Under the pieces are notes generated by a model. That model made no database searches, was not told where the DNA came from, and was given only the letters and a program-made list of their open reading frames with translations. Of a stretch of DNA of 41,970 bases, positions 10,822 to 41,786 are shown in pieces. Numbering within the stretch: position 1 is the first letter of the stretch; each line of letters begins with the position of its first letter. This stretch comes from Betaproteobacteria bacterium (GTDB lineage: Bacteria; Pseudomonadota; Gammaproteobacteria; Burkholderiales; JACQAP01), in the NCBI GenBank assembly GCA_025351455.1, contig JANXVW010000176.1, positions 1-41,970 on the forward strand, read 5' to 3'. The position numbers and the translations under genes are program-made.

Positions 10822-10844
10822 CAATCGCAACTGCGCACCACGAA

Positions 10845-10954
10845 GACACCCCCTCTCTCCAACTCTCTCCCGCGAGGGGAGAGGGAGATTGAAAGCAATA
10901 GAGCTTTAAAACCCTCTCTCCCCTCGCGGGAGAGAGTTGGAGAGAGGGGGTGTC
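10845..10954. repeat. Inverted repeat with 39-bp perfect arms
   Basis: Arms at 10845-10883 and 10916-10954 are perfectly complementary over 39 bases, separated by 32 nt. The arms are made of CTCTCTCC-type units plus CCCGCGAGGGGAGAG. It lies between the frameshifted gene and the enolase-family gene. CTCTCCC-rich palindromes of this kind are dispersed in many proteobacterial genomes; no transposase is nearby. Confidence 0.9.
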
Positions 10955-10997
10955 TCAAGGTGCGATAGTCGTTTTAGAAGATTCCGGGAGAAAATAA

Positions 10998-12954: not shown

Positions 12955-13167
12955 GTGAACACGAAGGGACACGAAGGAAAGGCAACGGCAAGGGAATACG
13001 GTATAGGGGGAGGATGTCGGTATGCGGCTCCGGCAAACCGGAATATTTGCATCGTTATTTCTGCAAAACGGCAATATCTGTGCGGCCCAGAGTCTATTCA
13101 CCTGCCATCTATTTTTCCGCTCCACCTTGTTCCTTCGTGTTTCCTTCGTGGCCCATCGTGTCCCGCG
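12955..13167. repeat. Non-coding element with inverted CACGAAGG arrays (copy 1)
   Basis: Left arm 12955-12986 carries two CACGAAGG units; right arm 13127-13167 carries the inverted units (CCTTCGTG twice, with a third degenerate one). The core between (about 140 nt) shares blocks with the element at 30836-31036: an ATGCGGCT..GGCAA stretch and CCATCTATT..TTC..CGCTCC just inside the right arm. It sits between the enoyl-CoA hydratase gene and the Bug gene and reaches into the start of the latter. Confidence 0.6.
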
Positions 13168-17027: not shown

Positions 17028-18542
17028 TCACCACGTATACCGCACCGTATACCGCACCACCGCCTCCCCATCCGCCGCAACATTCACCGGAAAGCAAACC
17101 GTCCGCGAATCCTGCTTCTCGAACGACTGACTGGCCTGCGTGATCTTCCAGTTCGTCCAGCGATAAAGATTCTCCTTCACGACCACTCGCACGGATTCGT
17201 TCTTGCGATTGCGGATCTTGACCTCGATTTCCTCGGTCATGGTATTGCGGCTCGAGTCGACCTTGAAGTCGACCTGTTTGCGTTCGCCGACGACATCGAA
17301 GGCGCTGCCGAGCTTGAGTTGGACCGTTTCGTTCTTCGGCGTGTGGTCGATGCGATCCTCGCCGATGAATTCCAGGCTGCCGTCCGCCGTGTCGAGCTTG
17401 GCGACGCGTACGCGACCGGAAGGCAACGGCACGCCCATGCCGTCTTCGGAACGATTCCTGAATGAAAGGTAGGTATCGATCTTCTTGTTGCCGGTGATGC
17501 CGTAATTGCGGTCGGTCATCGGCCCGCCGCCATACCATTGACCGGCTTGACCGTAATAGACCAGGGTCTTTTCGCAGGCCACGCCCGCCACCTTCGGGAA
17601 CAATTCGATCTGCTTGGTGGAATTGTCCGGCAGAGAACTCGGCCGCCCGAGGGTATAAAGGTGATACTCGAAGAAGGATTTTTCCTCGAAACCTTTTGCT
17701 TCTTCGGCCCGGTCCATTGCCGCGCTCTTCGCCATCATTCGCCCGACGGCGGCGGGTGTTTCGGCGCGGTGCACGTCACCGGCGACGAGTTTTATTTTCG
17801 CGTCGGGATAACTGCCGCCCGACTGGTTGAGGATGCTGACCCAGGCGCCGATGTCGAGCTTGCAGGAGTTGGCGTCTTTGCCTTCTGCAAAGGTCAGGTT
17901 GTAATCCGCCCACCAGGTGATGCCGGTGGTCTGATACGCCACGCGCGTCTTGTGCGTGCCAGCCTTGCCGGTAATCACATCCCACACCAGAGTCGGACGG
18001 GTAATCAGTCCGCCCGGAAGCGAAGGCAGCTTCACACCGGCGTTGTAAGGCAGTGTGCGCACCGAGCCGTCGGCTTCCCGGATGACCATGCCGCCCTGCA
18101 TCGAGAGCAGCTTGCCCTCGAGCGTCTCGATCTTGTTGCCGATCATGCGTTCGACCGCAATGTCGCGATCGATGAAGCGCATCAGCAGCTTCTCCGGGCT
18201 GACCAGGTCGAACTGAAAATTCTGCTCCATGACCCGTGTGCCGGCAGGGTCGGTCAGCGACGAAAACGACACGGTGGTCGGGTCGATCAGCCCGGCGACA
18301 TCGGTAAAGCGAATCGTATTGCGTCCAGCGTTAAGTGGAATGTCGCGTTCGTGGCGCACAGTTGCATAGCCGGGCAAGTTGCCGCCCCCACCGCCGTTTC
18401 GATACTGGTCCGGCGAAATCGAGCCGGGGCTCGCAGTGCTGTAGATGGTAATGGCATGGGTGCCATCTTCCGCGGCAACGGTGCCGAAGGAAGCGGCTAA
18501 GGCGAGCAAGGCACACGGGGCGCGCAGGCGGCGGGTAAACAT
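17028..18542 (-). CDS. DUF4139 exported protein
   Basis: The 504-residue protein has a cleavable signal peptide (MFTRRLRAPCALLALAASFG, cleavage after TVAA or AEDG) and a long beta-rich body. The C-terminal half has the DUF4139 landmarks: TGITWWADYNLTF, LNQSGGSYPDAKIKLVAGDV, TYLSFRNRSEDGMGVPLPSG and the ending ADGEAVVRYTVRYTW. The family is secreted or periplasmic and of unknown role. The ATG at 18542 is preceded by AAAGGAAT; upstream in-frame codons to 18659 lack similarity. It is divergent from glnS with repeat element 18641-18881 between. A decayed copy of its 3' end lies at 15602-15750. Confidence 0.8.
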   Translation of the reverse strand: MFTRRLRAPCALLALAASFGTVAAEDGTHAITIYSTASPGSISPDQYRNGGGGGNLPGYATVRHERDIPLNAGRNTIRFTDVAGLIDPTTVSFSSLTDPAGTRVMEQNFQFDLVSPEKLLMRFIDRDIAVERMIGNKIETLEGKLLSMQGGMVIREADGSVRTLPYNAGVKLPSLPGGLITRPTLVWDVITGKAGTHKTRVAYQTTGITWWADYNLTFAEGKDANSCKLDIGAWVSILNQSGGSYPDAKIKLVAGDVHRAETPAAVGRMMAKSAAMDRAEEAKGFEEKSFFEYHLYTLGRPSSLPDNSTKQIELFPKVAGVACEKTLVYYGQAGQWYGGGPMTDRNYGITGNKKIDTYLSFRNRSEDGMGVPLPSGRVRVAKLDTADGSLEFIGEDRIDHTPKNETVQLKLGSAFDVVGERKQVDFKVDSSRNTMTEEIEVKIRNRKNESVRVVVKENLYRWTNWKITQASQSFEKQDSRTVCFPVNVAADGEAVVRYTVRYTW

Positions 18543-18640: not shown

Positions 18641-18881
18641 CTTCACCGCAAAGACGCAAAGGGAACGCAAAGGAGAGCGAGGCGTTAGTTGAAGGGATAA
18701 ATGATTGATTGCCAGTCAGGCCGTAGCAACGACTTAGCGGTGGAGGGGATCGGATTATATTTGGCCGGGATCATTCCGACTGCGGTCAATCTTCAGAAGA
18801 ATATAGAACCGGCCCCGGCAATTCTTCGTTTCCGCCTTCCTTTGCGCTCCCTTTGCGCCTTCGCGCCTTTGCGGTGAGAGG
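18641..18881. repeat. Non-coding element with inverted CGCAAAGG arrays (copy 2)
   Basis: Left arm 18641-18682 contains CACCGCAAAG, ACGCAAAGGG and ACGCAAAGG; the right arm 18835-18881 contains the inverse of these, with one extra 8-nt unit. The 150-nt core has no open frame of note; near its right end TTCTTCGTTTCCGCCTTCC resembles the same position in copy 3. It fills most of the 436 nt between the divergent DUF4139 and glnS genes, where both promoters must lie. Confidence 0.7.
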
Positions 18882-30835: not shown

Positions 30836-31036
30836 CATCGCAAAGGCGCCAAGTAACGCGAAGGAGATCCCCGGCATTCAACGTGATTCGAGTCGCGAAA
30901 TATCATGGGCATGCGGCTGATTCTGGCAACCAGGGAAACCGTCACGACACTGGACCAGTTCTTCATGGCCAGCGCCCAATCCCATCTATTGTTCGTCCCG
31001 CTCCCTTCGCGTCCTTTGCGTCTTTGCGGTGAATGG
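30836..31036. repeat. Non-coding element with inverted CGCAAAGG arrays (copy 3)
   Basis: Left arm 30836-30870 has TCGCAAAGG, CGCCAAG and ACGCGAAGG; the right arm 31001-31036 has the inverse, CCTTCGCGTCC, TTTGCGTC and TTTGCGGTGA. The core shares an ATGCGGCT..GGCAACC block and a CCATCTATT..TTCGTCCCGCTCC block with copy 1. It sits between the convergent kinase and binding-protein genes and so is not needed by either as a promoter. Confidence 0.7.
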
Positions 31037-33713: not shown

Positions 33714-33876
33714 CAGTGAACGGTGATCGGTGAACGGTGAACGGTTAAAAGCCGGATTGTCTGGCGACTGTTCACTGTTTGCCGTTCGCTTGGCACCCGT
33801 CCCAATTTGCTGTTCACTGATTACCGTTCACTGTTTACTGTTCACCGTTCACTGTTCACTGTTCACCAATCACCGG
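33714..33876. repeat. Heptad-type inverted repeat element
   Basis: Left arm 33714-33745 consists of GTGAACGGT-type units; right blocks at 33767-33780 and 33809-33876 consist of the inverse, mainly TGTTCAC units with 7-nt period (with GTTTACTG and CACCGTTC variants). The element fills the interval between the serine hydrolase stop and the ATG of the kinase at 33879, so it forms that gene's whole visible leader. The 13-mer TCACCAATCACCG at 33863 also occurs at 22729. Confidence 0.75.
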
Positions 33877-41681: not shown

Positions 41682-41786
41682 GAGGGGCGAGGGGCGAGGG
41701 GCGAGGGGCGAGGAAAGTCTAGACTGAACGCGAATCAGGTCAAGTGCACTTCACGTTTTATCCCTCACCCCTCGCCCCTCGTCCCT
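41682..41786. repeat. GGGGCGA heptad inverted element
   Basis: Four tandem GGGGCGA units (7-nt period) form the left arm at 41682-41715; the inverse (CCCTCACCCCTCGCCCCTCG, about 2.5 units) forms the right arm at 41762-41784, with a 46-nt core. It sits between the TauD gene and the convergent oxidase gene, and its right end reaches the stop codon of the latter. Confidence 0.75.

Follow-up and report, generated by a model that had tools for sequence, protein, structure and literature searches.

Inverted arrays of a seven-nucleotide unit as candidate mobile hairpins in a betaproteobacterial genome and beyond

Three short stretches of non-coding DNA in a contig of Betaproteobacteria bacterium (JANXVW010000176.1, assembly GCA_025351455.1) are bordered on the left by arrays of a short unit and on the right by the inverse of the same arrays. 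Which process places such arrays face to face, and do the stretches between them belong to the element? The original prediction took the three stretches as copies with related cores, possibly MITE-like units or structured RNAs, of a possibly widespread but poorly described family. The window analysed here is the whole 41,970-nucleotide stretch of that contig.

Facing arrays in the window and in its genome

The whole elements span 12955-13167 (W1), 18641-18881 (W2) and 30836-31036 (W3). Their units, CACGAAG in W1 and CGCAAAG in W2 and W3, recur with a period of 8-11 nt.

W1 left arm, 12960..12976, plus strand: two exact CACGAAG units
W1 core, 12977..13132, 156 nt: no clear relative among the 64 cores of its own genome
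W1 right arm, 13133..13160, minus strand: two exact CACGAAG units and one with a mismatch
W2 left arm, 18647..18672, plus strand: three CGCAAAG units; outer TTCAC at 18642-18646
W2 core, 18673..18839, 167 nt
W2 right arm, 18840..18873, minus strand: four units; outer GTGAG at 18874-18878
W3 left arm, 30839..30863, plus strand: one exact CGCAAAG unit and two with a mismatch
W3 core, 30864..31004, 141 nt
W3 right arm, 31005..31028, minus strand: three units; outer GTGAA at 31029-31033

That short-unit arrays face each other at these three places was confirmed by reading the coordinates and by shuffled and reversed controls. The pattern CRCRRAG-N-CRCRRAG occurs four times in the window against 0.08 expected, a count reached by none of 100 shuffles, and pairs with two spacer bases occur once against 0.07 expected (7 of 100 shuffles reach one). 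The elements have the short length (less than 250 nt) and the terminal inverted repeats of a MITE and carry no gene of their own, as no ORF of at least 100 aa lies wholly within any of the three. W1 lies between tandem genes for enoyl-CoA hydratase-type and TctC-type proteins, W2 between a scored gene (17028-18542, minus strand) and a divergent class I (E/Q) tRNA synthetase gene, and W3 between convergent genes for a histidine-kinase-type protein and a periplasmic binding protein.

The genome of the window (G000; 3.94 Mb in 353 contigs) contains 258 close CGCAAAG and 105 CACGAAG unit pairs, overlapping pairs counted, and none of either reversed pattern. From the stretches fetched from it 64 facing array pairs were read (66 listed minus two nested readings), with cores of 70-175 nt. 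In 41 of its stretches (147 kb: the window and 40 picked for holding arrays) 86 of 102 arrays are paired, arrays of the reversed motif are absent, and neighbouring arrays within 450 nt are oriented plus-minus in 43 cases, plus-plus in one and minus-plus in one. The arm unit is the 7-nt CRCRRAG with a period of 8-11 nt; the spacing varies over this range among the elements of the genome, and arms commonly end in TTCAC/GTGAA. At G000:C52:7492-7552 seven CGCAAAG units follow one another on a single strand at 9-nt spacing.

The arms are common to these elements; the cores are not. Two methods were applied to the cores, blastn and an alignment scored against shuffles preserving the composition gradient. 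W1 and W3 align with z 2.55 (p 0.014, uncorrected for the six pair-orientations tried), the pair ranks 195 of 4160 pair-orientations of own cores, and it is absent from the blastn matches at E<=1 among the 64 own cores; in the same orientation W1-W2 and W2-W3 give p 0.43 and 0.047. Relatedness of the window cores is rejected by both methods. The best blastn match between any two of the 64 has E 4e-5 (76% over 50 nt), and three of the 4160 pair-orientations (65 own cores) reach z about 7, a nested self-pair left out. Since nearly all of the 64 cores are unrelated, the argument from related cores fails, and the outcome that the original prediction had named as contrary to it, copies with only the arms in common, is largely what is found within this genome. 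Core-sharing subfamilies do exist in relatives and in other genomes, and the window copies differ from a typical MITE in that internal sequences are mostly unrelated. The core edges are skewed: the first 5 nt on the left are 87% purine and the last 5 nt on the right 91% pyrimidine, falling to 68% on each side over 30 nt, and the inner 15 nt are no more complementary than permuted pairs.

The same gaps in relatives and the spread of the arm

Close CGCAAAG pairs are present in 16 of 60 genomes and absent from the other 44 relatives searched. Besides the 258 of G000, the same-genus genomes G001, G002 and G003 hold 134, 107 and 20, and 12 others hold 1-18; the reversed controls in the four genus genomes (G000-G003) give 0, 1, 0 and 1. 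Twelve own sites could be compared with the same-genus genomes, and a thirteenth (C94:13597) found no flank match. Relatives lack the full element at seven of the 12 and hold one at five. At W3 and at sites b, d and e the corresponding gap of both G002 and G003 lacks the whole element, as does that of G002 at site g. The W2 gap holds a small ORF in G002 and G003 and a thioredoxin-like gene in G001. Site a carries a CACGAAG element in the own genome and at most a right-arm remnant, CGTGTCCTCCGTGG, in G002; in G003 the same gap (L290, G003:C270:900-1400) holds a GGGGCGAGG-type array, so that different array families occupy one gap.

An element in the same gap is found in three of three relatives at E1, E2 (the G003 copy being split across two contig ends) and f, and in two of two at W1, where the left array of G003 is degenerate; at c, G002 has a full element and G003 a short remnant. 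At E1, E2, W1 and f the unit types differ between species, CGCAAAG or CACGAAG contrasting with CGCAGAG/CGCGGAG or CACAGAG, and at E1 both arms differ together (own CGCAAAG, relatives CGCAGAG/CGCGGAG). Of the 13 pairs of cores compared at E1, W1, c and E2, a single one shows clear homology, that of the own and G002 cores of E2, with the flanks aligned on both sides. These cores seem unrelated in forward-only alignment, and the inversion is visible once both orientations are tested (z 9.3 inverted against 2.3 forward; 60 random own pairs have a mean of 0.87, an sd of 1.3 and a maximum of 5.0). Scored against plain shuffles, which have a higher baseline, the own E2 core is also similar to another locus in G003 (z 13.2), and the core of G002 to a second locus in its genome (z 13.5); related cores at different loci are found within G001-G003. 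At the other shared sites core replacement is unproven, since kinship could be masked by ordinary decay where genes are roughly 75-90% identical. Beside the full E2 element of G002 (L133, G002:C16:35095-35440) lie an extra left half-element and a repeated flank stretch, and a related core lies about 2.4 kb off.

Gene context was taken from a home-made codon-score gene caller, a scored gene within 600 nt being required on both sides. This holds for 92 of 103 genus elements (for the other 11 the fetched stretch lacks a gene on one side): 76 lie between tandem, 11 between convergent and five between divergent genes, and none of the 92 overlaps a strongly scored ORF. The element-free gaps above 20 nt at the same loci are 50 tandem, 8 convergent and 14 divergent. 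The median distance of an element is 20.5 nt from 3' ends and 42.5 nt from 5' ends.

Beyond the genus, the arm 27-mer CACCGCAAAGACGCAAAGRACGCAAAG has exact matches in at least 113 stretches, so that the suspicion of a widespread family was well founded. The labels among the matches listed include Proteobacteria, Desulfobacterales, Desulfuromonadales, Planctomycetes, Latescibacteria, Chloroflexi, Nitrospinota, Acidobacteria (Silvibacterium, Thermoanaerobaculales), Bacteroidetes, Poribacteria, Fibrobacteres and one Methanoperedens archaeon, whose arrays stand back to back and do not face each other. By our own grouping of the record titles this makes about ten bacterial phyla; nearly all of these genomes are MAGs, in which single cases may stem from a mis-binned contig. 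A facing partner lies within 450 nt for 72 of the 120 matched arrays in named genomes; 35 arrays are lone and 13 are partnerless near a locus end. Cores are shared by eight copies in Desulfuromonadales-type MAGs, one of them a Geobacter MAG, by the pairs L193/L205, L200/L214 and L207/L249, and by the Scalindua copies. Some Desulfuromonadales copies remain similar past the arms up to GTACCC-type ends; in the MAG F14_bin-0369 (L212, L250, L253/L191) the array hairpin lies within a longer repeat with ends like TAGTACCCYGTCCGGCTT, which differ from the Scalindua ones. Plasmids and phages give weak partial matches in 8 and 12 records, none covering 80% of the query. IMG/VR gives two contigs, one with its array at the contig edge (L341) and one with a lone half-array (L340, 3035-3058) placed right after a stop codon and right before the next ATG.

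A signature of transposition is found in a Scalindua genome (G100), where 12 longer matches were found and near-identical copies have the outer ends GTATCTATTCAC...AATAGTTAC. Among the eight copies with both ends found, five are flanked by perfect 8-bp direct repeats, while the flanks match at 6 of 8 positions in two and at 3 of 8 in one. The total of 55 of 64 matching bases exceeds the permuted sets, whose mean is 28.5 and whose maximum is 51; in real and permuted sets alike, the right end was chosen as the better of two. GTAA ends and an 8-bp duplication are typical of IS66 elements in general. Two IS66-family genes reside in the same genome; the copy at L337, with ends GTAACTATTCAG...CTGAATAGTTAC and the 8-bp repeat TATAAATC, has the same ends as the array copies, and for the second (L335) one end was found. 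By their ends, their 8-bp duplication, their lack of a gene and the resident IS66, the Scalindua copies fit the description of IS66-derived MITEs. The likeness is confined to them: IS66-type ends occur in four of 77 named-genome elements, all from Scalindua, and in none of 98 genus elements, and the window's genome has neither an IS66 match nor such ends nor the duplication. The IS66 profile PF03050 finds nothing in G000 and G001, one match below cut-off in G002 and one strong match in G003. As mobiliser, IS66 is accepted for Scalindua and rejected for the window's genome.

Scans for target duplications gave no signal in the own genome, in G001-G003 or in the pooled named genomes, and the window copies thus differ from typical MITEs in this respect too; the age of the copies in the window's genome may hide a duplication. 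The MITE-like character proposed at the outset is supported by presence and absence in relatives and by the shared cores and 8-bp duplications of the Scalindua copies, and fails on duplications and shared cores in the window's genome. Several candidate partners were set aside. A RAYT/REP link was rejected, as 13 of 14 Y1 transposase loci in G000-G003 have no such array in their fetched flanks and one has a single two-unit array. No autonomous element with the same ends was seen in the stretches scanned (the scan left out the G003 loci and L242-L274). Among the 80 named loci L162-L241 there is a sole pair of distant facing arrays, L230; the ORFs between them are ordinary, and one looks by eye like MoaC; the distant own pair L077 consists of arms of two separate elements, d and e; G002 has one distant facing pair, L118. 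Slower evolution of arms than of cores was seen with nine picked Scalindua and eight Desulfuromonadales copies, the latter set biased by having been fetched by exact arm. It was dropped when 11 Scalindua copies, damaged ones included, gave singletons at 8 of 481 arm and 7 of 973 core letters.

Origin of the elements

The reading that we favour, at somewhat better than even chances, is that the family consists of non-autonomous, mobile intergenic hairpins of foldback or MITE-like type, moved in trans. It is based on the 258 and 105 unit pairs against none in the reversed controls and on the dominant plus-minus orientation, on gaps that lack the whole element at W3, b, d, e and g, on related cores at different loci in G001-G003 and other genomes together with the inverted E2 core, on the IS66 ends and 8-bp duplications of Scalindua, and on the occurrence of one 27-nt arm under the labels of many phyla. 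The transposition signature itself holds for Scalindua; in the window's genus there are presence and absence and cores shared between loci. In such a scheme the arms would be either the part recognised in mobilisation, perhaps by a transposase, or the part that makes a hairpin substrate. The core would be filler free of constraint, which drifts and is now and then inverted when the arms recombine, as the single case of E2 suggests. The mobilising enzyme would be supplied in trans, by the IS66 transposase in Scalindua and by another, putative enzyme in the window's genome, and insertions would survive chiefly in gaps shortly past stop codons. That the arms show no constraint in place in Scalindua fits arms that matter for moving and not for sitting.

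Against mobility stand the missing target duplications, the absence of IS66 from G000 and G001 and of a partner from the scanned stretches, and nearly all own cores being unrelated, unlike those of a young MITE family; an element kept across species at five sites also fits resident sites. Since IS66 ends are limited to the four Scalindua elements, they may have been added to a hairpin of other origin. A wider proposal, which we put forward tentatively, would unite these elements in an unnamed super-family of prokaryotic foldback elements with CRCRRAG arms, passed between phyla and to at least one archaeon, with interchangeable, invertible cores and borrowed transposon ends (IS66 in Scalindua, others in Desulfuromonadales). 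The presence of one exact 27-nt non-coding arm in genomes whose labels span about ten bacterial phyla and one archaeon calls for broad transfer or for a recognition system in common, and the literature found, as far as its available text goes, describes neither for this arm. If the elements are mobile, they offer a tractable model for the spread of intergenic hairpins.

The closest described relatives are the paired class 2 global regulator sites of Geobacter metallireducens (PMC2700814), as given in the available text of that paper. They have three tandem repeats of about 8 nt (class 1 sites have four) and occur as opposite-strand pairs at variable distance, which is also the arrangement found here. 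Reverse-complemented, their consensus TCTCCGTS[Y] corresponds to the CACGGAG form of CRCRRAG, whereas the window units are CGCAAAG and CACGAAG, and CACGGAG units are rare in the genus (five in G000, six in G002, one in G001). In 2009 the paired class 1-3 sites were read as possible IHF/HU sites (PMC2700814), and the available text on class 2 carries no mention of a transposition of their own. Along this line, the elements would be paired sites that stay in place and are bound by a global regulator or a protein that organises the chromosome, two arrays binding one protein and the DNA between them being irrelevant. Conserved arms around unrelated cores, the elements kept at five of 12 sites and the Geobacter consensus agree with it. 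It is nonetheless unlikely, given the 44 of 60 relatives without a CGCAAAG pair, the seven of 12 sites without a full element, a position near gene ends and seldom between divergent genes (5 of 92), a unit spacing that varies from 8 to 11 nt, and the 8-bp duplications in Scalindua. Should the mobile reading hold, the regulator-site interpretation of the similar Geobacter pairs deserves re-examination.

Folding brings in a further possibility. As RNA, W1, W2 and W3 are each more stable than all 200 dinucleotide shuffles (z -3.6, -4.6 and -3.2). A left arm is closer to the reverse complement of its own right arm than to those of the right arms of other elements, with z 5.8 for 39 CGCAAAG and 3.9 for 25 CACGAAG elements, 8.4 for 39 elements of G001-G003 and 2.4 for 77 from named genomes. 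Yet few left arms match their own partner best (3 of 39, 2 of 25, 11 of 39 and 5 of 77), and in the own sets the likeness does not extend to the 15 nt inside or the 7-18 nt outside the arms. Covarying arm pairs, proposed as a check, gave a divided answer: two small arm-length classes (8 and 9 elements) show 40 and 54 double changes against 15.3 and 24.7, above all 500 shuffles, and the largest class (54 elements, 40 of them taken from genomes found by exact arm) shows 33 against 34.1, equal to its shuffles. Transcribed hairpins between co-transcribed genes, acting in mRNA stability, RNase III processing or attenuation, with a stem that matters and a loop that does not, would account for the stable stems, the likeness of own arms, the excess in the small classes and the 76 of 92 elements between co-directional genes. 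This is a quite unlikely explanation in view of the largest class, of arms whose sequence is kept across phyla beyond mere pairing and, in Scalindua, are at least as variable as the core once every copy is included, of the 35 of 120 named-genome arrays that stand alone away from a locus end, and of the window having no Rfam match at gathering score. No terminator-like site was found inside W1-W3 and no core is conserved; the structured RNA first envisaged has no support beyond the hairpin of the arms.

Sequence that makes itself in place, its arrays growing by replication slippage and its arms equalised by template switching between inverted copies, would explain the joint change of both E1 arms, the seven-unit run on C52 and the other, unrelated 7-nt inverted arrays of the window, and is improbable, as slippage would yield neither an exact 27-mer in genomes labelled as different phyla nor 8-bp duplications or related cores at several loci.

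Known systems and other arrays of the window

In eukaryotes, foldback (FB) elements carry long inverted arms, composed of short tandem repeats, on either side of unrelated middle sequences. The elements of the window's genome share this organisation, and differ in being bacterial and far shorter. REP/REPIN sequences with RAYT transposases are high-copy intergenic palindromes near gene ends; the arms described here are tandem arrays instead, and the Y1 transposases go mostly without them. The GGGAATC heptamer repeats of Xanthomonas have another, G-rich unit that was studied for quadruplexes, and the available text reports them from one genus and Nostoc relatives and gives no evidence of an 8-bp duplication (PMC4692102). 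The available text of two further papers describes multicopy sequences found in 12% of gaps, some of them built from 6-42-nt direct repeats (PMC2996986), and intergenic TAACTGA direct repeats (PMC4679880). Literature searches with 15-16-nt arm words, run outside supplements, found no paper on the element among the titles listed. As far as these searches show, the element has no name, in line with the early view of it as poorly described, and what goes beyond the nearest descriptions is the CGCAAAG and CACGAAG forms, their wide spread, the comparisons of presence and absence and of core inversion, and the duplications in Scalindua.

The same architecture recurs in the window with other units: inverted arrays of the unrelated 7-nt unit GTGAACG and its complement enclose a short core at 33714-33871, and AGGGGCG arrays enclose a 54-nt core at 41683-41786. 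A CCCTCTCTCC-rich hairpin at 10844-10955, with 53-nt arms that are 92% complementary, recalls the CCYTC class 4 sites (PMC2700814) and a triplex motif (PMC4666352), as far as the available text of these papers describes them.
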